NCBI RefSeq assembly: GCF_029854705.2
Contig: NZ_CP139035.1
Location: forward strand, 1,116,001 to 1,180,000
Origin: Akkermansia sp. N21116
GTDB lineage: Bacteria; Verrucomicrobiota; Verrucomicrobiia; Verrucomicrobiales; Akkermansiaceae
Reading direction: 5' to 3'
DNA: 64,000 nt
Part shown: in pieces, positions 48,868 through 60,945 of the stretch
Position numbering within the stretch: the stretch's first letter is position 1
Layout: each line of letters begins with the position of its first letter
The notes under the pieces: generated by a model
The model's input: the letters and a program-made list of their open reading frames with translations, nothing else
Database searches by the model: none
What the model was told of the DNA's origin: nothing
Made by a program: the position numbers and the translations under genes

Positions 48868-49737
48868 ATGATCGCTCCCGTACCCCGCTCCATACGTTCA
48901 TCCTCCCTGCACCCGGCTATCGCATTGGTGAAGAAGGTTCCTTCGGAGGCTTCTTCTCCCTCTGCCGTACGCCCGGACTACCTGTCTCCCTCCTCGGTCA
49001 AATCGTATCTGTCGTGTTCCCTGCGCTTCTTTTTCGAGAGGGTAGTGCAGATACGGAAACCGACGACGGTCGCTCTACATGTCGGCAAGGCTATCCATAC
49101 CACACTCCAGTCCTTCAACCTCGCCCGATGGCGGGGAGAGGACAGTAGTGAGACGGCCATGGAAGAAGCCTTCTCCGCCCACTTTCTGGAGCTGGAGAAG
49201 ACGGAAGGCCCGGTGAACTACGCCGACGAAGAAACGAGACAGAAGGTACGTTCCTGCGCCTGGAACACGGTCAAGGCCTACATGACCTCCGGCGAGGTTG
49301 CTTCACAGATGCCCCTGGGAGTGGAAGTCGGTTTATCGGCTACCATCCCCGGCTTGTCGGTTCCCGTGCGAGGCGTCATCGATCTCGTCCAGCACGATCT
49401 GACGGCAGTGGACTACAAATCCACTTCCGCCAAACCTGACAACGGGCATGCCGCCTTTGATCACGAGCTTCAACTGGTCACCTACCAGATGATGATCGAA
49501 GAAGCCACGGGAGACACGCCTCCGTCGCTGGATCTGATCTACCTGGTCAAGACGAAGACCCCTCAGGTGATCCGGGTCAAGACTCCCCCAGCTGACGAAC
49601 AGCGCAAGCGGCGCATCGCCGACCTGTACAGGATCGCCTACGAAGGCATCACCACCGAGCGTTTCTATCCCCAGCCTGGGATGCAATGTTCCTGGTGTCA
49701 GTACAGAAAGGAATGTTCCGGGTGGTGTAAGAAGTGA
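48868..49737 (+). CDS. RecB/Cas4-like PD-(D/E)XK nuclease with Fe-S cluster
   Basis: This encodes 289 residues. Motifs: SVKSYLSCSLRFFFE near the N terminus with Cys50, HVGKAIH (His77), Glu153, GVID with Asp172, DYK with Asp182 and Lys184, and the QLVTYQ helix. The C-terminal CSWCQYRKECSGWC gives Cys274, 277 and 283, so with Cys50 a 4Fe-4S cluster as in Cas4 and AddB. It should be a single-strand exonuclease or end-processing nuclease. There is no CRISPR array or cas gene here, so the role is likely element recombination or defence. A second, truncated copy is at 58127. Confidence 0.9.
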   Translation: MIAPVPRSIRSSSLHPAIALVKKVPSEASSPSAVRPDYLSPSSVKSYLSCSLRFFFERVVQIRKPTTVALHVGKAIHTTLQSFNLARWRGEDSSETAMEEAFSAHFLELEKTEGPVNYADEETRQKVRSCAWNTVKAYMTSGEVASQMPLGVEVGLSATIPGLSVPVRGVIDLVQHDLTAVDYKSTSAKPDNGHAAFDHELQLVTYQMMIEEATGDTPPSLDLIYLVKTKTPQVIRVKTPPADEQRKRRIADLYRIAYEGITTERFYPQPGMQCSWCQYRKECSGWCKK

Positions 49738-49785
49738 GAGGAAGTGGTTATTCAGAAGCCTGCCGTTAGGATGGCTTCTTTTTAA
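49391..49785 (+). repeat. direct repeat (copy 1): 3' half of nuclease gene plus terminator
   Basis: From CAGCACGATCTGACGG to the terminator this block recurs at 58177-58570, close to 88% identical by eye. The two copies bracket cargo with a lower GC content. They mark either a tandem duplication or an insertion between homologous copies. Confidence 0.85.
49754..49784 (+). terminator. rho-independent terminator after nuclease gene
   Basis: AGAAGCC and GGCTTCT form the stem around TGCCGTTAGGAT, followed by TTTTTAA. The same terminator follows the truncated copy at 58541. Confidence 0.75.
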
Positions 49786-50539: not shown

Positions 50540-50950
50540 ATGATTATGGACATAATACGATTGAATGGAAAAGATAAACTTCTGTATGATCTTGTTGCAC
50601 CTCTGGCCATGAACCCTGCCGTTATCAGACAGAATAATGGTTATCCGTTTAAAACATCCCAGCAACATGTATGGTATATAGCGGTAAGTGATGATTCCGT
50701 CGTTGGCTTTATGCCGTTAAAAAAGGGTTCTGCCGGCATGCTTATTGATAATTATTACATAAGAGGCGACGATAGTAATATAATCACCGGGTTGGTGGAA
50801 AAAACAGTATGCGACTTTGGTTCTTCGGGGACTTTGGCGGCAATGGTATTCAAGCGGCATGTGGAAATTTTTCGCAATCTCTATTTTCTGTCCGTTGTCG
50901 AATTGAAGAATTACGACAAGATGGAATATCGCAGGTTATTGAAAGCGTAA
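50540..50950 (+). CDS. GNAT-like protein of IbrA/IbrB module
   Basis: This encodes 136 residues. The centre (WYIAVSDDSVVGFMPLKKGS) and the later IITGLVEKTVCDFGSSGTLA look like strands 2-4 and the acetyl-CoA helix of a small GNAT fold, with a late NLYFLSVVELKNYDKMEY matching the last strands. An in-frame ATG lies at 50546. Its stop overlaps the IbrA start by one base (TAATG), so the two are translationally coupled. Acetyltransferase call is from pattern only. Confidence 0.68.
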   Translation: MIMDIIRLNGKDKLLYDLVAPLAMNPAVIRQNNGYPFKTSQQHVWYIAVSDDSVVGFMPLKKGSAGMLIDNYYIRGDDSNIITGLVEKTVCDFGSSGTLAAMVFKRHVEIFRNLYFLSVVELKNYDKMEYRRLLKA

Positions 50951-52254
50951 TGACCCGGCAACCGAATGTTTATGAAGCAGTCCAAGGCAGGTTGAAAGTA
51001 ATCTTCGACCATTTCGATTATGTGTATGTTTCTTTTTCCGGAGGCAAGGATAGTGGTTTGTTGCTGAATCTTTGCATTGATTATATTCGCCGCAATGTAC
51101 CGGGACGAAAACTTGGCGTCTTTCATATGGATTATGAGGTACAGTATCGTCAAACGACGGATTATGTGCTCAGGACCTTGGAAAAAAACAGAGATATCCT
51201 TGATGTCTATCATTGCTGCGTGCCGTTCAAGGTTTCTACTTGCACATCCATGTTCCAGACGTATTGGAGGCCGTGGGAGAAAAACAAACAGCCTCTTTGG
51301 GTTCGCAACATGCCGGAGGGTTGCATGAAAGCGGATGATTTCGATTTTTTTTCGGATGATTTGTGGGACTATGATTTTCAGTATCTTTTTGCTCCGTGGC
51401 TGAAGAGCCGGAAAAAATGTCATCGAGTATGTGCCCTGATAGGCATACGCACACAGGAGAGTTTCAACCGCTGGAGAGCCATACATAGCAGCAAGAATTA
51501 CAGGCGCTTCCAGGACCATAAATGGACTCACAAACTGGGTTGCAACATATATAACGCCTATCCTCTTTATGACTGGAAAACTTCTGATGTATGGATAGCC
51601 AATGGCAGATTCCGCTGGGACTATAATCGGTTGTACGATCTCTATTATCAGGCGGGAGTTCCTCTCCATCGGCAAAGGGTAGCAAGCCCGTTTATCTCGC
51701 AAGCCATCTCCGCCCTCTCCCTTTACCGTGCCATTGACCCGGATATGTGGGGGAAAATGATTGGCCGGGTCAACGGCGTGAATTTTGCAGGCATTTACGG
51801 AAAAACCAAGGCAATGGGGTGGAAATCCATCACTTGCCCCGAAGGGTTCTCCTGGAAGCAGTATATGTATTTCCTTCTTGATACGCTTCCTGAAAAAGTA
51901 CGTGGTAATTATCTGAGGAAGCTGGAAGTCAGCATGCGTTTTTGGAAAAAACGTGGCGGATGTCTGAGCCGGACAACGATTAGAAAGCTAAAAGATGCCG
52001 GAGTAAAATTCACGGTGGGGCGTTCAACTGCCTACCATACGGATAAGAAACCCGTCAGAATGGAGTACCTTGACGACATTGATATTGCAGAGTTCAAAGA
52101 AATTCCTACGTACAAACGAATGTGCATTTGCATCATCAAGAATGACCACGTGTGCAAGTATATGGGTTTTTCTCCGACCAAGGAAGAAAAAGACAGGAGA
52201 GAGAAAATCATGGAAAAGTACAAATCCCTGGAAAAATGGAAAAAGCGTTTGTAA
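50950..52254 (+). CDS. ibrA: IbrA-like PAPS-reductase-family protein (DUF3440)
   Basis: This encodes 434 residues. The PP-loop SGGKDS (residues 30-35) in YVSFSGGKDSGLLLNL marks an ATP-pyrophosphatase of the PAPS reductase/adenylation fold. The rest matches the IbrA group: FHMDYEVQYRQTTDYV, the GIRTQESFNRW segment, and the WKTSDVWIAN motif. IbrA with IbrB controls expression of eib genes in E. coli prophage and the pair is often found on phages and islands. The 3' end overlaps the ibrB-like gene by 19 bases. The likely chemistry is nucleotide-dependent transfer or modification, not proven. Confidence 0.88.
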   Translation: MTRQPNVYEAVQGRLKVIFDHFDYVYVSFSGGKDSGLLLNLCIDYIRRNVPGRKLGVFHMDYEVQYRQTTDYVLRTLEKNRDILDVYHCCVPFKVSTCTSMFQTYWRPWEKNKQPLWVRNMPEGCMKADDFDFFSDDLWDYDFQYLFAPWLKSRKKCHRVCALIGIRTQESFNRWRAIHSSKNYRRFQDHKWTHKLGCNIYNAYPLYDWKTSDVWIANGRFRWDYNRLYDLYYQAGVPLHRQRVASPFISQAISALSLYRAIDPDMWGKMIGRVNGVNFAGIYGKTKAMGWKSITCPEGFSWKQYMYFLLDTLPEKVRGNYLRKLEVSMRFWKKRGGCLSRTTIRKLKDAGVKFTVGRSTAYHTDKKPVRMEYLDDIDIAEFKEIPTYKRMCICIIKNDHVCKYMGFSPTKEEKDRREKIMEKYKSLEKWKKRL

Positions 52255-52763
52255 GCCCTGTTTATCAAGTTATTGCCGTTCCGGTAGAAAAGGTTGTGGC
52301 GAATACCTACAATCCCAATATCGTGGCACCGCCTGAAATGAAACTATTGGAACTCTCGATATGGGAGGACGGCTACACCATGCCCTGCGTATGCTATTAC
52401 CTGAAAGACCGGGATCAGTATGAACTGGTGGACGGATATCATCGTTATCTGGTCATGAAAACCTCGGAGAGAATCTACCGGCGAGAAAAAGGGCTGCTTC
52501 CCGTTTCCGTCATTAATAAGGACATTTCCGAACGTATGGCTTCTACGATACGCCATAACAGAGCTCGAGGTACTCATTCCGTAGAATTGATGAGCCATAT
52601 TGTTTCCGAACTTGCCAAGGCAGGGATGTCCGATGCGTGGATCATGAATCATATAGGGATGGACAAGGATGAATTGTTGCGCCTGAAACAGGTTTCCGGA
52701 CTGGCAGAATTATTTGCCGATAAGGAATTCAGCAAATCGGAAACCTGGATGGAAGATTATTGA
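52236..52763 (+). CDS. ibrB: IbrB-like ParB-domain protein
   Basis: This encodes 175 residues from the ATG at 52236. The N-terminal ParB/Srx-like nuclease fold shows VPVEKVVANTYNPNIV, the core YELVDGYHRYLV and STIRHNRARGTHS, which in ParB would be the CTP/NTP-binding region. A C-terminal helix-turn-helix-like stretch (DAWIMNHIGMDKDELLRLKQ) follows. IbrB partners IbrA. It overlaps the ibrA end by 19 bases, a strong sign of co-translation. Confidence 0.87.
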   Translation: MEKAFVSPVYQVIAVPVEKVVANTYNPNIVAPPEMKLLELSIWEDGYTMPCVCYYLKDRDQYELVDGYHRYLVMKTSERIYRREKGLLPVSVINKDISERMASTIRHNRARGTHSVELMSHIVSELAKAGMSDAWIMNHIGMDKDELLRLKQVSGLAELFADKEFSKSETWMEDY

Positions 52764-52961
52764 TCTATTTCCAGAATGGAGAAATCTTTCTGAAATCGTC
52801 CATTCCAAACCGGTGTCGCACAATATTGTACAGTTAATCTTCTTACCGAATGATTAAAAATCTATTTGCTTTTCAAGATCAACTAATTAGCAACTTGTTA
52901 TTCTTTTGACAGAATATCTTTTACCAGATAAAATATTTGATTATATCGCAGACATAAATCA

Positions 52962-52993
52962 ACAGTCGTACATGGTAATGTACGACTGTTGAA
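52962..52993 (-). terminator. 14-base perfect hairpin after secreted-protein operon
   Basis: CAACAGTCGTACAT and ATGTACGACTGTTG are exact complements around GGTA. It lies 29 bases past the last stop of the minus-strand operon. The T-run is weak, so it may be a terminator or a regulatory hairpin. The gap 52764-53021 holds nothing else I can name. Confidence 0.6.
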
Positions 52994-53021: not shown

Positions 53022-53384
53022 TTAATCCACAGAGGAACCCTGAATATTAGTTGAGGCTTCTTTACAGGTTAATGTTCCTTGATTGTTAATGATAGATTCA
53101 GGATCCAATTTTGTAACATCAGTTTTGACTGTATATGATTGACCTCCAGCATTTGCCGATCCGGAAAACGGAGTTCCAGAAAGCGACCAATCATGTGCTT
53201 TCGCTGGCTCTTCGGGGGTTATTTGCCCATTTTTACCCGTTATAAAAGCAGGGACATAGGAGAAGATTTTACCTTTTGGTCCAACAGATATTGCTCCACC
53301 TCCTGATGCTCCTGGGGCTATCGTTCCAGCATAGGATGTTGAACAAGTTATCAGAATGGCAAGTATATAGGCATATTTTTTCAT
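53022..53384 (-). CDS. small secreted Gly/Ser-rich protein
   Basis: This encodes 120 residues. Residues 1-19 form a clean signal peptide (KKYAYILAILITCSTSYA). The mature part has APGASGGGAISVGPKGKI and a Gly/Ser/Thr/Asn-rich rest with one Cys near the end (LTCKEAS). It looks like a small surface or matrix protein. It is the last gene of the operon behind the beta-propeller gene, 11 bases away. Not recognised. Confidence 0.68.
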   Translation of the reverse strand: MKKYAYILAILITCSTSYAGTIAPGASGGGAISVGPKGKIFSYVPAFITGKNGQITPEEPAKAHDWSLSGTPFSGSANAGGQSYTVKTDVTKLDPESIINNQGTLTCKEASTNIQGSSVD

Positions 53385-53395
53385 TGTGTATAATA

Positions 53396-55918
53396 TTATC
53401 TATGGTTTTCTAGTTTTGGAGGATTATTTTTCCAAAGTTCCAATTCTTCGTCTGTTACACTCTCCAGGCGCTCTCTGAGTGCCTTGATTTTGGTATCATC
53501 AACGAGGTTATTGGAAAAATAGTCCTTCCACTCGAGATTTAAATAATTCATAACCTCAAGGTCTTTCACGGTAACAGGCAATACTCTGGGGCTTTGCGGA
53601 AAATACTCTTCCGTTAAAAAGGCACCTCCATTGTACTCTTGTAATTTATACCAAGATTGAAGAAGAGTTTTGTCAAATAATTCCCTTTCCCGTTCATTCC
53701 ATAATTTTAAGCTCCATCTCATTAATGAAGATAATTGAGATGGAAAAGAATTTTTGTTCTGACTTCGGTAAGCATCTATAGACCAACGATGTGCCTTAGC
53801 AAGATTTAAGGGATTTAGGCTTATTCTATTCACGGTATCCCACGCATTGACTAATTCGTGCTCCTCTTGTGAAAATTCCTGTATCTTCTTTAGAGGGAAT
53901 AGGTCAATGCCTTGATATTCATGAAATAAATCTTCTTTTGAGTATTTTCTGAGTAGCCCACTATTGTGAAGCCGGGAAATGAAAACTCCGTTTATTCTTG
54001 CACTTTGAGAATAATTCCTCGCTATTCTCACATAGTACATACCAGGTCCCCTAAGAAGGAATGTTTTGTAAACTCCGTTAACTGAAATGTCTTTGACTCT
54101 GGTTCTGGCCAACACAGGTTCCTTGAGAATCTGATCAGTTTCCTGTTCAAGAGAATGATCACAGGAACCATCTTCCTTTTCCAATCTGTAGCATTCCAGA
54201 GAAATCTCGTCTGGCATCTTACTTTTGTACTTTCTGATTTCAACCAGAAGATCCCTTCTTGCCATTTCGGGGAGAATCATCGCCTCATTGTTATAAAAAT
54301 ACATGGTGAGCTCATAGGGGATCTCTTCCGTAACCTGTACCACAAGCCACAGATCTGGACCATCAATGGATTTGCCTCCTCCGGCGTCACTCCACAGGCC
54401 ATATGATTTAGTGCACCTGAATGGATTATGTAACGAATTAGGGTCTTCAGAGTTATGTATCCATCCCAGTCCTGTTTGTACTCCACGTTCATGAGGACGG
54501 TTATTTCCCAGACGGCATCCTACCTTCGCCGAACTGCCATCAAATAGGGAGAAAGACTGTGAACCAAATCCAAAGTTGGCACCGCATAAAATACCCAGAT
54601 AATTACCATATCGGTGACACCACCATCCTTTTGTCGCCCAATCTTCTTTCCAGTAAACGACAGGACAGGATGAATTTTGATCCCCGTTGTCTGTACGGAA
54701 TTCATCGGCTTCCTTTTTCAACGAAGCCCATTCCCGAGGAGGAGGAGGCTGAGGGTGATTGATATCACCAGTCATTCCTCCATTCTTGCTTAATGGAGTC
54801 TTTTGATTAGGTTTACAGATGTTAATCAATCCGTTGCCGTAGGTCATGGCGTATACGGAACCATTAGGCAAAGGAATGAATCCTGTTACCCAGGGAGTGA
54901 CGACTTCTTTGGGAAATTCTGCAAGCCGAATGATATCAAGAGAACTAGGTTTTACCAAGGCGGCTCCCCTATCTCTGAAACCAACCCATAACCCATCGGA
55001 TGTCAGAGACATTGACGTCACGTAATCTTCCGGGAGCAGCTTCCTCGATAGAAAAGGCTTCCGAGAGGTTCGGACGAGTCCCGATATGCCCATATTTTTG
55101 TCCCAGTAATCCTCACCACGAATGAATTTCCACCCTTGCCTTTTTGAAAATAAAGCTATACCGGTATCTGTTGCCACCCAAACATATCCTCCTGGACCAC
55201 ACAGAATGGAATTACATAGATTTGAAGGTAGCCCGTCCCCCATAGCTTCGACAGGGCTTCTTAACTTCTGATCCTTATCTCGATACCAAGGAGCCTGGAC
55301 GAGAGATTTCTCTTTGTACTGACCTTCCTTGGTCACTTGTGCAACTCCACCACAGGCATAGGCGATCCAAAGAGTTCCATCTTGGGCGAAAGAAGCCGCT
55401 TCAATCTGGTCAGATATCAAACCTTCCGCACGGGACAGGTAAGACCATTTCTCATCTTCAGGATTATACAAGACAAGTCCTGCCGATGTGGCTATGGCAA
55501 CCTGTCCCGTTTCCTGAGAAACGACAATATCAAAAATTCTCTCACCCGGGAGAGCACTTTCCCTGTCGTATTGCTTCCAGGATACTCCGTTAAAAACAAA
55601 TACTCCCTGATCGCCAGTCCCAATCCAAATGCGTCCTTGCTTGTCTTCTGCGACACAGTAAACATTTTCTGTTTCAGGACATCCTTCATAATAATTGGCG
55701 TTCATCCAGTTTTCCTTGCCATCTTCGCTGATCCACCCTCGATAGATTCCGGATTTTTCACCCACAATCCAGATAGAACCGTCTTTGGAAATCAGTCCGT
55801 CGGTAATATATAAGACGGGGCAATTTTGGTTTTGATCTGCATTGGGCATACTTTGACCAAGGACTGTAAAGGAGCCACATACAAACAGAGAGAAGACAAG
55901 CGATAGTAATGATTTCAT
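53396..55918 (-). CDS. secreted beta-propeller (Reg_prop-like) protein
   Basis: From the ATG ending at 55918 this is 840 residues with a signal peptide (about 1-22). The first 350 residues form two-component-regulator-propeller-type blades: repeated IWIVGEKSGIYRG, RIWIGTGDQGVFVFNG, VAIATSAGLVLYN, LWIAYACGGVAQVT. Unlike hybrid sensors there is no transmembrane histidine kinase after it; residues 360-840 hold a galactose-binding-like region (Trp/Gly-rich) and a helical end. It starts 55 bases after the transglutaminase-like gene. Likely periplasmic or surface-exposed; role unknown. Confidence 0.78.
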   Translation of the reverse strand: MKSLLSLVFSLFVCGSFTVLGQSMPNADQNQNCPVLYITDGLISKDGSIWIVGEKSGIYRGWISEDGKENWMNANYYEGCPETENVYCVAEDKQGRIWIGTGDQGVFVFNGVSWKQYDRESALPGERIFDIVVSQETGQVAIATSAGLVLYNPEDEKWSYLSRAEGLISDQIEAASFAQDGTLWIAYACGGVAQVTKEGQYKEKSLVQAPWYRDKDQKLRSPVEAMGDGLPSNLCNSILCGPGGYVWVATDTGIALFSKRQGWKFIRGEDYWDKNMGISGLVRTSRKPFLSRKLLPEDYVTSMSLTSDGLWVGFRDRGAALVKPSSLDIIRLAEFPKEVVTPWVTGFIPLPNGSVYAMTYGNGLINICKPNQKTPLSKNGGMTGDINHPQPPPPREWASLKKEADEFRTDNGDQNSSCPVVYWKEDWATKGWWCHRYGNYLGILCGANFGFGSQSFSLFDGSSAKVGCRLGNNRPHERGVQTGLGWIHNSEDPNSLHNPFRCTKSYGLWSDAGGGKSIDGPDLWLVVQVTEEIPYELTMYFYNNEAMILPEMARRDLLVEIRKYKSKMPDEISLECYRLEKEDGSCDHSLEQETDQILKEPVLARTRVKDISVNGVYKTFLLRGPGMYYVRIARNYSQSARINGVFISRLHNSGLLRKYSKEDLFHEYQGIDLFPLKKIQEFSQEEHELVNAWDTVNRISLNPLNLAKAHRWSIDAYRSQNKNSFPSQLSSLMRWSLKLWNERERELFDKTLLQSWYKLQEYNGGAFLTEEYFPQSPRVLPVTVKDLEVMNYLNLEWKDYFSNNLVDDTKIKALRERLESVTDEELELWKNNPPKLENHR

Positions 55919-55973
55919 GAAAAGAATTGATAAAATTAAAGTGTTCCGATTTGAAACAATAATATCCAAAGTT

Positions 55974-57704
55974 CTATTTGCCTAGCGATCTGGTTAGTTT
56001 TTCTTCAGCATTTGAGAAAGCCTTACCGGAAGCAGCATGCTCGGCTGTCAGAACTCCGCGTTTCAGAAAGGATATTGCCCTTTCCTGATATTTGGAATCC
56101 TTCCATAGAAGTATTTGCTCAACATAAACGTCTATCAAGGTTACTGTCATAGACGGGTTTTTTTGTAAATCTGAAATAGCTTTTTCCAAGAAGTTACATA
56201 TCTGTTTTTTTGATGAACCCGAAAATTTGTTGTCTTGAGTATTTTCAGACCATTTCTTGAAATAATTTTTTCTGGTTTTTACGTTATATTCAAGTTTTCC
56301 TGCCAATGAGGGAATAGCTTTTTTGGCTTCTTCAGCTAGTGTTAACATGTACATTTCCGATGCGTCTCTTGATGTGGAGGAATCAAGCATTAATGCTGCT
56401 AACTGTAAAGCATCGTATTTCCCCTGTCGGATTCCTAACCCGTCATTGACAAGCTTCCTCATGATGATCGGCTCATCCCTAAAGCTTTTTGCTATATCAC
56501 CAATTAGGGCTATTTTTTCTTTTTTCCCCAATTTTTTTGATATCAAGCGAAGAGAATCTTCCCATGCAGGCAAGTTCCATTTGGTTGTCTTAACTGCACA
56601 ATCTAGTAAAAACTTTTTATCCTGTTCATTCCGAGCGTATTGCGATAATTCATAACATAACCAGGATTGTTCGAATTGGCTATGACTCTGAAATTTAGAG
56701 ACAACACTGATCATGTAAGGATGTCCAGGCCATGGACTGAGATTTCTATTTCCTGTCCAAATCCAGCCATATATATTATTACCGATCTTCCAGTTGCCAT
56801 CTGTGCTTTTCCAGACGAATGCACAATGTCCAGGTTGTGAGACGGTATAGGCAGGGATTCCCTTTGCTCCGATAAATCCGCACGCTGAGGTAGAAACAGC
56901 TCCACAGACACCACCGTATTCAACTAATATAGGAAGAGTCTGGGGCTTGAAATCATAAAATTTATTCCCTTCGTGTATACTGACCCCATCCTTATTTTTC
57001 ATTCTATATGGAATGAAACTACAAGCGATGTCACCTGCATTTCGGTCCGTATAATTCTTTTTATTAGCTGTATGCATTTGTGCCCATGAAAGTTCATCCA
57101 CGTTACGCCCAGAACTAAACAGGATGGACATTTCCCATGGGTGTAATGTTTCAAACTGTGAAAATAATTCCCCCTTTAAATGGGATTGTTGATAAAATCG
57201 ATATCTGACCATTCTATCTTCAATCTGTTCTTCGGATGACAGGGATAATGCCGCACCGAGAGCCATTTTTAAATTGGATCCGTCAAGTGTTTGATTTTCA
57301 AGTTTCCAGATTTGATGGATGAAATCCAGAGTCATGAAATTACCTTGGCCGGAAAAAGCCAACCCTTTTAAGATATCATCATTGGTCAGGAGGAATTTGA
57401 CAAAACCCTTGTCCTTCAAGGCTTGAATGGTGTATTGACTTTTGGGGCAAATTCGATCACAAAAAATAGACAGGTAACAAATTTTTGCCAACACCTTGTC
57501 ATTTAGCAACATCTCAAGTCGAGATTCATTTAGCGTCCTCTTATTTACTTCTTGTTGTAGATATTGCGTACAGAACTTCGAGATGCTTTTGGGATTGGCT
57601 GACCAGCATTGAGTTTCGAGGTTCTCTATCGATAGAGACGCCGTAGAAGAGGCAATGGAAACCCCTATAATACATAAAAAAAGAATATGCATTAATGTTT
57701 TCAT
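55974..57704 (-). CDS. secreted transglutaminase-like protein
   Basis: This encodes 576 residues with a signal peptide (1-22). The central part has the transglutaminase-like triad layout: Cys267 in GGVCGAVS, His293 in PGHCAFVW, and Asn309 in KIGNNIYGW, spaced as in that family. The first 250 and last 220 residues are helical and unassigned. It would crosslink, hydrolyse or modify proteins in the periplasm. It heads a three-gene operon with the propeller and the small Gly-rich protein; the latter might be its substrate. The TTG-preceded ATG at 57704 is used. Catalysis is inferred. Confidence 0.72.
   Translation of the reverse strand: MKTLMHILFLCIIGVSIASSTASLSIENLETQCWSANPKSISKFCTQYLQQEVNKRTLNESRLEMLLNDKVLAKICYLSIFCDRICPKSQYTIQALKDKGFVKFLLTNDDILKGLAFSGQGNFMTLDFIHQIWKLENQTLDGSNLKMALGAALSLSSEEQIEDRMVRYRFYQQSHLKGELFSQFETLHPWEMSILFSSGRNVDELSWAQMHTANKKNYTDRNAGDIACSFIPYRMKNKDGVSIHEGNKFYDFKPQTLPILVEYGGVCGAVSTSACGFIGAKGIPAYTVSQPGHCAFVWKSTDGNWKIGNNIYGWIWTGNRNLSPWPGHPYMISVVSKFQSHSQFEQSWLCYELSQYARNEQDKKFLLDCAVKTTKWNLPAWEDSLRLISKKLGKKEKIALIGDIAKSFRDEPIIMRKLVNDGLGIRQGKYDALQLAALMLDSSTSRDASEMYMLTLAEEAKKAIPSLAGKLEYNVKTRKNYFKKWSENTQDNKFSGSSKKQICNFLEKAISDLQKNPSMTVTLIDVYVEQILLWKDSKYQERAISFLKRGVLTAEHAASGKAFSNAEEKLTRSLGK
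57624..57637. promoter_or_regulatory. CTCTATCGATAGAG palindrome in gene start
   Basis: A perfect 14-base palindrome inside the first codons of the transglutaminase-like gene. A near copy (TTCTCTATCGAGAG) lies in the promoter about 110 bases upstream. Paired sites of this kind are typical of repressor looping. Confidence 0.45.
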
Positions 57705-57728
57705 GAACAAATTTATTTAAACAGTAAA

Positions 57729-58126: not shown

Positions 58127-58555
58127 ATGAGGACGCACGATATAGTTGTCGCCGTAGTTTTTTATTTCCTGAAAATTCAGCACGACCTGACGGCAGTGGA
58201 CTACAAAACCGCTACTGCCAAGCCGGATGCCGGCCATGCAGCCTTTGACCACGAACTCCAGCTGGTCACCTACCAGATGATGATCGAAGAAGACACGGGA
58301 GACACGCCTCCGTCACTGGATCTGATCTACTTGGTCAAAACGAAGACGCCTCAGATGATCCGTGTCAAGATCCCACCAGCCAACAAACAACGCAAGCAAC
58401 GCATCGCCGACCTGTACAGGATCGCCTGCGAAGGCATCACTTCCGAGCGTTTCCATCCCCAGCCCGGGATGCAATGTTCCTGGTGCCAGTACAGGAAGGA
58501 ATGTTCCGGGTGGTGCAAAGAGGTAGTACAGAAATCATTCAGAAGCCTGCCGTAA
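58127..58555 (+). pseudogene. truncated copy of PD-(D/E)XK nuclease gene
   Basis: From residue 18 on it repeats the C-terminal 115 residues of the nuclease at 48868 (QHDLTAVDYK, LVTYQMMIEE, CSWCQYRKECSGWC) at about 88% identity. The first 175 residues, including the His77, Glu153 and Asp172 sites, are absent, replaced by a short unrelated hydrophobic start. It keeps an open frame but cannot be an active enzyme. Its terminator is also copied. Confidence 0.85.
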
Positions 58556-58570
58556 GGCCGGCTTCTTTTT
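58177..58570 (+). repeat. direct repeat (copy 2): 3' half of nuclease gene plus terminator
   Basis: Second copy of the 49391-49785 block, with the same terminator sequence. Together they bracket the GNAT-IbrA-IbrB and transglutaminase operons. Confidence 0.85.
58541..58570 (+). terminator. rho-independent terminator after truncated nuclease
   Basis: AGAAGCC and GGCTTCT form the stem and are followed by TTTTT. A copy of the terminator at 49754. It also lies just beyond the convergent TcmP gene. Confidence 0.75.
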
Positions 58571-58602
58571 AGATAATTGATATCTGGAAACGACAGGCGG
58601 AG

Positions 58603-59835
58603 TTATTTAAAAGAGAAATAGGTTTGGAGAGAAGGAATAATCGTGTCGTTTAACCTAAATGATGATCGAGAATAGGGAGGACAGGAGATTACTTTTTCTG
58701 TTTTTAGAACTCTTAATGATTTTAAGATCATATCATGGTCGGCTATAGTTGTATTTGCTACATCGTCAAGTAATTTTGATAATTGAATACCATCTTGATG
58801 ATGGTCACGAATGTATTTACCAAGATCGTCATGAAGGGTTATTTGACATAAATCTTTGTTTTTTTCTGTGAATAAAAGACCTTCCTCGTATAAATCTGCA
58901 TCAGCTTGAGGTCTATATGCAAAGATATCAAGTCCACAATTGCCAAAATGCCGAGAACCGTTCTGTTCTTTCCAATGTTCTCCAACCATGGCATAGCGTG
59001 CTCGACTACTATCAGCTAAATGTATGAGCAAATAACCACGGTGATTATTTTCCGGCATGATGTAAAAGGGAGAAAAATATTTAATACCTGTAGCATAATG
59101 GTATGCCGTTGCTATGCGGGCTTCTACAGGATAACGCCAGTCTTTAGTCGTCTTGCACAATGCGAGAAATTCATCGATATTTACACAAGGCTCAATACCA
59201 ATTGATTGGAGACTCTTTTCAAAAGGTAATTTGTTTTTTTCCGAGAAAAAATCAGCAAGCCATGTACTTGAAAAATTAATGATAAATTCGGCACGTCGAT
59301 ACAACCGATTATGTATGCTTTTTATTAATGTAGCAGGAACTTGACTATAACCACATTGGTCTAGAAAAAAGATAGTTCTATTACCTCCTCGTGGATGACG
59401 GCGATTGATGTCAGAAATAATTTCATCAACACTTTGAGAAAAACTTGAATTTCTAATTTTAATTTCGAGGCCAGTATATCCATATTTAGCCAAATTTTCT
59501 TTTAGAAGATTATAGTGATCTTTATTTTTTTCTATAAAATAGTATGTTGGTTTTATGGTCAGACTACTTTTCCGTTCCTGATTAATTATAGCATTGGCTT
59601 CTTTTACGGCATTAAAAAAAACAAACGGAGAGCCTAGCTCTCCGCCTTTATACAAACCACCTCCAGCAAAACCGTCAATGAAAGTAACTTCCTGTTCTTG
59701 TTTCCCTCGAATATTTTTAAGTAATATAGTGAGATATGAAACAAGATACCCATGAAGTAAATCTAGTTTCTTTTGACTATGCTTTTCTAAAACAGGATAC
59801 CCATTTTTCCAATTAAAGGAGTCGTTATTATCCAT
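58603..59835 (-). CDS. tcmP: three-Cys-motif partner protein TcmP
   Basis: This encodes 410 residues. An early methyltransferase-like motif I (VTFIDGFAGGGLY, Asp54) and a later FFLDQCGYSQVP (Asp159, in the place of the catalytic motif IV) give a Rossmann methyltransferase look. This is the TcmP family, named for its partnership with the three-Cys proteins; its true activity is not known to me. It lies 15 bases downstream of the DUF5131 gene on the same strand. The pair is AT-richer than the flanking backbone genes, so it is cargo. A winged-helix-like end follows at about 340-410. Confidence 0.85.
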   Translation of the reverse strand: MDNNDSFNWKNGYPVLEKHSQKKLDLLHGYLVSYLTILLKNIRGKQEQEVTFIDGFAGGGLYKGGELGSPFVFFNAVKEANAIINQERKSSLTIKPTYYFIEKNKDHYNLLKENLAKYGYTGLEIKIRNSSFSQSVDEIISDINRRHPRGGNRTIFFLDQCGYSQVPATLIKSIHNRLYRRAEFIINFSSTWLADFFSEKNKLPFEKSLQSIGIEPCVNIDEFLALCKTTKDWRYPVEARIATAYHYATGIKYFSPFYIMPENNHRGYLLIHLADSSRARYAMVGEHWKEQNGSRHFGNCGLDIFAYRPQADADLYEEGLLFTEKNKDLCQITLHDDLGKYIRDHHQDGIQLSKLLDDVANTTIADHDMILKSLRVLKTEKVISCPPYSRSSFRLNDTIIPSLQTYFSFK

Positions 59836-59850
59836 GACTTATATAAATAA

Positions 59851-60678
59851 TTAACATGTGACAATACGCCGATATGGAAAACCATTCCATTCATCTCCAT
59901 CTAGCTCTCTCCCTGCGCGTTTTTTACCAAGACCTACCATCCTCTGCCCAAGTAACTCCACGGTATGACGTTTTTGAATATCGGTGAGAGTTTCTTCAGG
60001 AGCCCAATGTCCCCATTGTTTGAAATGGAACGGAATATCAGCAACTTGGCATTGGTCACGAAGTTTTCTGACCCAATCCGGGTGCATAGGACGTGCTTTT
60101 GGCCCACTTTCACCACCTGTAATAACCCAATCAATGCCGTTTTGCCATGAAGTAATGTCCAAGGGCCCTAGAAGAGGCTCACAACTTAAGAAACGTATTT
60201 TAGCTGAATGTTGTAATAGATGTGGAATACGTTTATTGGCGTATTCTTGATTTTCTACGGTAGTACCTAGCCATACATTATCTGGCCAATTATTTACCCA
60301 AGGACAGAAATATTGGATTTGATCGGGATGCTTGGTTAGCAACAACCAATCAAGATTAGGCGTTTTTAGGATTAGTTCCCATAATTTATCACGCCAAGGC
60401 GAAAGTTCAGAACGGGGTTCGAAAATATCAGACATCGAAGCGCAAAAGACTCGATGTCTGATTCCTTTTACTTTCGATGCTTTATCCCATAAGACAGGTT
60501 CATGCCAGTGTTTATCTCCGAAAAACCGTCTTTTGGCATTAGCCCCCCAAATATCACACCCGACACGTTTGGCCCAAGTTTCAGCGTAACAATTGGCACA
60601 GGCAGGAGATACTTTTGTACAACCCCACCACGGATTGAAAGTATGATGAGTCCATTCAATGGAAGAATTTTTGGCCAT
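59851..60678 (-). CDS. DUF5131 (phage Gp37/Gp68) three-Cys-motif protein
   Basis: From the ATG ending at 60678 this is 275 residues. The N terminus EWTHHTFNPWWGCTKVSPAC then CANCYAE holds the three cysteines (20, 27, 30) of a radical-SAM-like motif, and the rest (HRVFCASMSDIFEP, LDWLLLTKHPD, ITGGESGPKARP) follows the Gp37/Gp68 pattern. With TcmP this suggests a two-enzyme modification system acting on nucleic acid or a small molecule. Upstream starts would add a long unlikely extension. Family sure, chemistry inferred. Confidence 0.9.
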   Translation of the reverse strand: MAKNSSIEWTHHTFNPWWGCTKVSPACANCYAETWAKRVGCDIWGANAKRRFFGDKHWHEPVLWDKASKVKGIRHRVFCASMSDIFEPRSELSPWRDKLWELILKTPNLDWLLLTKHPDQIQYFCPWVNNWPDNVWLGTTVENQEYANKRIPHLLQHSAKIRFLSCEPLLGPLDITSWQNGIDWVITGGESGPKARPMHPDWVRKLRDQCQVADIPFHFKQWGHWAPEETLTDIQKRHTVELLGQRMVGLGKKRAGRELDGDEWNGFPYRRIVTC

Positions 60679-60842
60679 AATTTCTGCGATTAATTTATAG
60701 GAATATTCCTTTTTGCCTAGTCCTAATTCCGAGCAAGAGGAAATAGAATGAGATGTATGACCATTATCACAAAAGAGGCTATACGATTGAATAAGCCTGT
60801 CTTTCGGATGGAGCCATTCATCTGAAAATCCCTCTCTCCCCG

Positions 60843-60924
60843 CGTCATATATCCCTGAGGAAGCAGCTTCTCTGCTTCCTTCCTGTGCCCACCTCCCGGC
60901 CTTGTTCCGGGAGGTGGGCTTTTT
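60843..60924 (+). promoter_or_regulatory. leader with two hairpins before DUF932 gene
   Basis: CGTCATATAT (60843-60852) is followed by GAAGCAG...CTGCTTC and then by CCCACCTCCCGG (60888-60899) pairing with CCGGGAGGTGGG and CTTTTT (an intrinsic-terminator shape) just 20 bases before the ATG. The layout matches that at 48163. It may work as an attenuator on the backbone genes. Confidence 0.5.
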
Positions 60925-60945
60925 GTTGCAACAAATCAATCATCA

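Follow-up and report, generated by a model that had tools for sequence, protein, structure and literature searches.

A multi-copy Akkermansia cassette of a Reg_prop propeller protein, a candidate cysteine enzyme and a fast-evolving secreted partner

Introduction

In the type IX secretion system of Porphyromonas gingivalis, the carbohydrate-binding, surface-located protein PorZ works together with the cysteine sortase PorU (PMC8545088). PorZ (PDB 5m11; NCBIfam NF052228) is a secreted Reg_prop propeller protein without a kinase and with a cysteine enzyme for a partner, a combination that may recur in the locus described here; it differs from that locus in having two propellers (PMC8545088) and a type IX signal domain. 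In sequence profile and in fold, the closest propellers are those of the periplasmic sensors of Bacteroides hybrid two-component systems (HTCS), such as BT3049, BT4663 and BT4673, whose chains continue into a second propeller, a Y_Y_Y domain, a membrane span and a kinase, all of which our protein lacks. For the enzyme, the nearest comparison is the transglutaminase-like superfamily (PF01841; PDB 3isr), with which its predicted structure shares a Cys at the start of a helix, a His on a strand and a third residue after the next strand; that residue is Asn in our enzyme and usually Asp in the superfamily, and our enzyme has no Pfam match and carries its core between helical domains. Many bacterial members of this wider fold are hydrolases.

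Akkermansia muciniphila, a candidate probiotic and one of the gut symbionts that have been studied heavily, attaches to mucus and modifies it in ways that are only partly understood. The DNA analyzed here, referred to as the window, is a stretch of 64,000 nucleotides of Akkermansia sp. N21116, the genome of which consists of a single contig of 3.5 Mb. Our preferred reading, to which we assign a probability of about 0.42, takes a three-gene operon in this window for a single copy of a cassette that Akkermansia carries in several, fast-diversifying copies and that serves an enzyme assembly at the cell surface, built of a scaffold, an enzyme and an accessory protein.

Results

The operon consists of three open reading frames on the minus strand, in the order enzyme (57704-55974), propeller (55969-53396) and small protein (53384-53022). 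The first, spanning 55974-57710, encodes a candidate cysteine enzyme of 576 residues when counted from the ATG at 57704; the second gives a propeller protein of 857 residues when read from a TTG, a start at the ATG of 55918, where a signal-peptide-like stretch begins, being likelier; and the third encodes a secreted partner of 120 residues. Enzyme and propeller genes are separated by 4 nt, or by 55 nt with the ATG start, and propeller and small-protein genes by 11 nt. By hydropathy, we judge the N-termini of all three proteins to be like Sec signal peptides. A consensus scan placed a sigma-70-like promoter site (TTGACA-17-TATTTT, minus strand, 57757-57729), matching at 10 of 12 positions and by itself no proof of function, 25 nt ahead of the ATG of the enzyme gene, and scan and sequence together indicate a terminator-like hairpin with a 15-bp stem and a T-rich tail on the same strand at 52959-52992. 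With such signals on either side of the three genes, a single transcript is plausible from the sequence, and the secreted three-gene operon proposed in the preliminary description agrees with this layout.

The only Pfam family recognized in the second protein is Reg_prop (PF07494; E 3.9e-14), with no match to a kinase or a Y_Y_Y domain, and a search of four Akkermansia genomes returned no Y_Y_Y match over the cut-off; a Reg_prop propeller without a kinase, as first described, is thus what we find. The predicted structure (pLDDT 84, pTM 0.87) comprises a single seven-bladed propeller (approximately residues 44-390), a beta-sandwich (approximately 437-666) and a helical C-terminus, the VIA-align matches covering the propeller part only. 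A profile search of the PDB gave matches down to E 8e-33, and the nearest structures are the three Bacteroides sensors named above, PorZ being matched too. We assign the protein to neither family. Its likeness to PorZ consists of a fold match and a local sequence similarity of 52.7 bits, far under the NF052228 cut-off of 260 bits that nothing in the four Akkermansia genomes exceeded, and it is built differently, from a single propeller, a beta-sandwich of another kind and a helical C-terminal part; membership among the HTCS sensor kinases was rejected as the second propeller, the Y_Y_Y domain and the kinase are all missing.

The idea that the protein has lost the kinase part of a sensor is not supported by the comparison. 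Besides having one propeller, no Y_Y_Y domain and a C-terminal beta-sandwich and helical domain of its own, it has counterparts with the same propeller-sandwich-helical layout, and with no secreted partner downstream, in Opitutales, Lentisphaerae/Victivallales and related bacteria. Given such stand-alone versions in several gut lineages of the PVC group, an ancestral kinase is unnecessary and its loss should not be assumed.

Within the named collection, Akkermansia records contain the nearest relatives of the window propeller, and family members outside the genus come mostly from animal guts. The latter distribution, the Akkermansia lifestyle and the proximity of the propeller to glycan-sensing domains of Bacteroides would all suit a mucin-foraging unit, in which propeller and beta-sandwich bind mucin glycans, the enzyme is a secreted peptidase of mucin or host proteins, and the small protein acts as an inhibitor or chaperone. 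The same reading gains from a probable relative, Amuc_0371, which was found in the outer-membrane fraction of A. muciniphila and whose abundance rose more than tenfold on mucin (PMC4960237). Amuc_0371 is probably the single propeller of genome G040, an identification made through the gene neighbour and the wording of the annotation, not the sequence record. The G040 propeller adjoins a gene read as glutamate decarboxylase, which we take to be Amuc_0372. As the G040 propeller is a distant paralog of ours (33%) with a different short partner, its outer-membrane localization carries over to the window protein by family only, but a probable relative in that proteome does speak for the cell-surface role that the locus was initially thought to have. 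Foraging nevertheless seems to us an unlikely account of the whole: the operon contains no glycoside hydrolase, sulfatase or known mucinase, and foraging alone does not explain the high turnover of partners and the many broken copies described below.

The AlphaFold2 model of the first protein (pLDDT 89.2, pTM 0.84) shows a helical N-terminal part, a transglutaminase-like core (approximately residues 180-330) and C-terminal helical repeats; here and below, residue numbers of the enzyme follow the 578-residue numbering of the model. In an alignment of 24 relatives, C269 (in EYGGVCGAVS) and H295 (in QPGHCAF) are invariant in all 24, and the pair N311/N312 (IGNN) is conserved in the short-form enzyme family, not in the larger paralogs. 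The Cys-His-Asn layout read initially from the sequence is thus confirmed, with the residues in the right order. In the model, C269 begins a helix (269-282), H295 begins a strand (295-301), and the Asn pair comes after a further strand (307-310). The order of these elements is that of papain- and transglutaminase-like enzymes, and the modelled topology fits a transglutaminase-like one.

The expected transglutaminase fold agrees with the predicted topology and finds a weak match among known structures. Structural matches of the whole model, by VIA-align and Foldseek, were nearly all to helical repeats, and the one covering the core was 3isr, a putative cysteine protease that we take to be a transglutaminase-like entry; it aligned with residues 182-326 at Z 7.3 and 3.5 Å over 131 residues, a supportive match at a score that unrelated folds can reach. 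Foldseek found no match to the enzyme model in the PDB at E 1e-3, Pfam assigned no family to the window enzyme, no match to PF01841 at E 0.1 was obtained among the 24 family members, and the profile of the enzyme family returned only weak helical matches from the PDB. A single PDB match of the core profile was rejected as chance. No enzyme of the family has been characterized, which counts against the model that we favour.

The core domain is present in 57 of 285 genomes of Akkermansiaceae and the class, and the short form occupies 23 loci in 13 of 76 Akkermansia genomes. Three larger paralogs of the core (L036 5910-9491, L035 6554-8728 and L037 6597-9344) lie in the same genome. Each has F5/8-type C domains and adjoins a similar secreted gene, thioredoxin-like by appearance, and in one of them the core is joined to a Ser/Thr kinase.

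Topology and the Cys-His-Asn residues could belong to a true transglutaminase, which would build or modify a surface layer by linking copies of the small exported protein covalently with one another, with the propeller or with the cell surface; the small protein is co-encoded and exported and has 7 Lys and 4 Gln in its mature part. Against this stand the missing PF01841 match, the hydrolytic nature of many bacterial members of the wider fold, and the small protein itself. Its mature part of 100 residues contains 14 Gly and 12 Ser, but it is not repetitive, and its only detectable homolog (locus L102 in genome G089; 31% identity, E 5e-11) has 10 Gly, so that Gly-richness is not a conserved trait. 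Furthermore, the same gene slot is elsewhere often taken by secreted proteins of approximately 450-940 residues that end in another Cys-His-Asp domain, or has no enzyme nearby. A Gly-rich crosslinking substrate, as first proposed, is consequently not how we read the small protein, and we give a true transglutaminase that crosslinks it only a small chance.

An accessory subunit is the role that we favour for the small protein in place of a crosslinked substrate, and we propose, from sequence, that it is Ig-like. The proposal comes from six short partners, the window protein among them, in which a Cys stands 40-45 residues after a Trp, as it would in an Ig-like sandwich; the product of shuffle frequencies for this spacing is approximately 1e-6, with the pattern picked after inspection and absent from three other short partners. 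Some further matches of the small protein in relatives (E 0.004-0.07) lay inside trpB genes in another frame and were discarded as chance.

The coupling of propeller and partner is family-wide in Akkermansia. Of 76 genomes of the genus, 17 contain the propeller family, mostly in several copies each, and we counted approximately 40 copies. In approximately 35 of these 40, the propeller stop is followed after no more than about 40 nt by the start of a gene whose product begins like a signal peptide; outside Akkermansia, this was so in 0 of 7 loci. The partners are either short (approximately 120-176 residues), as in the window, or long (455-940 residues). The short ones make up several families without detectable mutual similarity, hhalign comparisons among them being negative apart from one weak pair. 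Nine divergent representatives of the long ones share a C-terminal domain with just two invariant columns, a Cys and a His, after which most of the nine have an Asp. The profile of this domain resembles the pseudomurein endoisopeptidase PeiW (PDB 8jx4) around the Cys and the His at a sub-threshold E of 0.47, a likeness confined to long partners of other loci, and one long partner approaches PF01841, likewise below threshold (E 0.07). As hhalign of the enzyme core against the long-partner domain was negative (E 0.6), we do not claim the two to be homologous. A secreted family of approximately 470 residues, without a Pfam match, comes after the long partners in Akkermansia, and its relatives directly precede the propeller in Opitutales. 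Members of this follower family, for example at L029 6170-7579 and L153 4635-5996, carry the motif VGDYDL..P.L...GSE.SAVYFVRGNTAV.

Judged by sequence, the partners diverge faster than the propellers: in a pair of related tandem loci, the propellers are 70-77% identical and the partners 36-39%, one example being 77% for the propellers with 37% for the partners. Stops or frame changes disrupt the reading frames of several copies (L031, in the enzyme; L070, L097, L101 and L104; also L110), and so many broken copies point to rapid turnover. In a conflict system, the variable secreted partners with their cysteine domains would be directed at competitors among the bacteria or would hinder phage or factors of the host, while duplication and swapping would diversify the cassette. 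Such a system would explain the multiple and often broken copies per genome, the uneven divergence in the tandem loci, and the loss of recognizable similarity among partners whose propellers are still 40-50% identical. Compared with polymorphic toxin systems, in which a conserved carrier has a variable toxin C-terminus and a linked immunity gene, the cassettes have a variable secreted partner and a linked secreted follower family. No toxin family was matched, and neither a toxin domain nor an immunity gene, cytoplasmic or other, was identified in the cassettes; every product has a Sec-type signal, a delivery system was not among the genes of the cassette, and fast change also fits adaptation to host targets or antigenic variation. 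We rate this the least probable of the alternatives, noting that both conflict and foraging overlap with the surface-assembly model.

Of the 23 loci of the short-form enzyme, 8 have a propeller no more than 6 kb away, against an expectation by chance of approximately 0.4 (estimated from gene density, with 1-6 propellers per 3-Mb genome, the 8 loci not all being independent by descent). The linked loci fall into three gene orders: enzyme directly upstream of the propeller (the window, L031, L104 and L139), enzyme downstream of it with a short partner in between (L100 and L101), and enzyme downstream with both a long partner and the follower of that partner in between (L029 and L110). Three different orders argue for repeated association, and the co-conservation that the preliminary description wished to see checked is borne out at the level of the families. 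All 13 genomes with a short-form enzyme, which represent related species, also contain the propeller family. Against the surface-assembly model, the remaining 15 enzyme loci lack a propeller at this distance, other small secreted proteins being the neighbours in such loci. In many propeller loci, both the enzyme and a long partner with the Cys-His-Asp domain are missing.

The complete arrangement of the window probably exists also in G089, where it is split across two contigs: the closest enzyme (49%) is followed directly by the start of a propeller at a contig end, and L102, the homolog of the small protein, directly follows a propeller 50% identical to that of the window.

Discussion

The scaffold-enzyme-accessory model draws on several computed features, namely the export-type N-termini, the transcription-unit signals, the family-wide coupling of propeller and partner, the linkage of the enzyme, and the catalytic-looking arrangement of Cys, His and Asn. 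To these we add, by inference, the surface scaffold, the glycan or glycoprotein target, the amide-bond chemistry and the accessory role of the small protein. The propeller would be held at the outer membrane as a scaffold and, by analogy with its relatives, may bind a glycan or glycoprotein that belongs to mucus, to a neighbour or to the surface of the bacterium itself. The cysteine enzyme would then break or rearrange an amide bond, peptide or isopeptide, in the target bound by the propeller; as its chemistry, we lean towards hydrolysis or deamidation, with transfer or crosslinking the less expected but still substantial option. The small protein, as an Ig-like accessory, could be a specificity subunit or the equivalent of an inhibitor or pro-domain, and may replace the N-terminal part of the longer partners that carry a Cys-His-Asp domain of their own.

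PorZ and PorU offer the closest working analogy for such an assembly, which is not to say that the proteins belong to the same families. A bolder possibility, which we regard as doubtful, is an undescribed multi-copy Akkermansia system in which a carbohydrate-binding propeller is combined with interchangeable cysteine enzymes of the transglutaminase fold and with Ig-like subunits that are hypervariable. Such a system would parallel PorZ-PorU independently, remodel proteins of the mucus or the envelope and diversify under conflict or host adaptation. A literature search on Akkermansia transglutaminases and on the propeller-partner cassette found nothing relevant beyond Amuc_0371, and in the literature covered the cassette has no description.

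The cassette joins a glycan-sensor-type propeller with candidate cysteine enzymes, and the family is linked to the outer membrane and responsive to mucin in at least one probable member. Among the genomes searched, its full form is confined to Akkermansia, and the family differs between species. If the surface-assembly model is true, it points to individual genes through which species-specific surface biology can be tested, and Reg_prop propellers without a kinase would then have become partners of enzymes beyond the type IX system too.

The surroundings of the operon have features of their own. Two repeats lie 8.79 kb apart (49390-49784 and 58178-58571), each combining 300 nt of a PD-(D/E)XK nuclease gene with 35 nt that look like a terminator (88% and 91%), and between them they bracket the operon and an IbrA/IbrB-like gene pair, suggesting insertion or duplication by recombination. 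The pair, on the opposite strand beside the operon (50809-52763), consists of a DUF3440/PAPS-reductase-like gene overlapping a possible ParB-like gene. On the other side, at 58603-60939, a look-alike of a three-Cys-motif partner, with a weak GMT-wHTH match only, adjoins a DUF5131 gene. A further remnant of the nuclease gene is found near the second enzyme locus of the window genome (L032 4031-4465).
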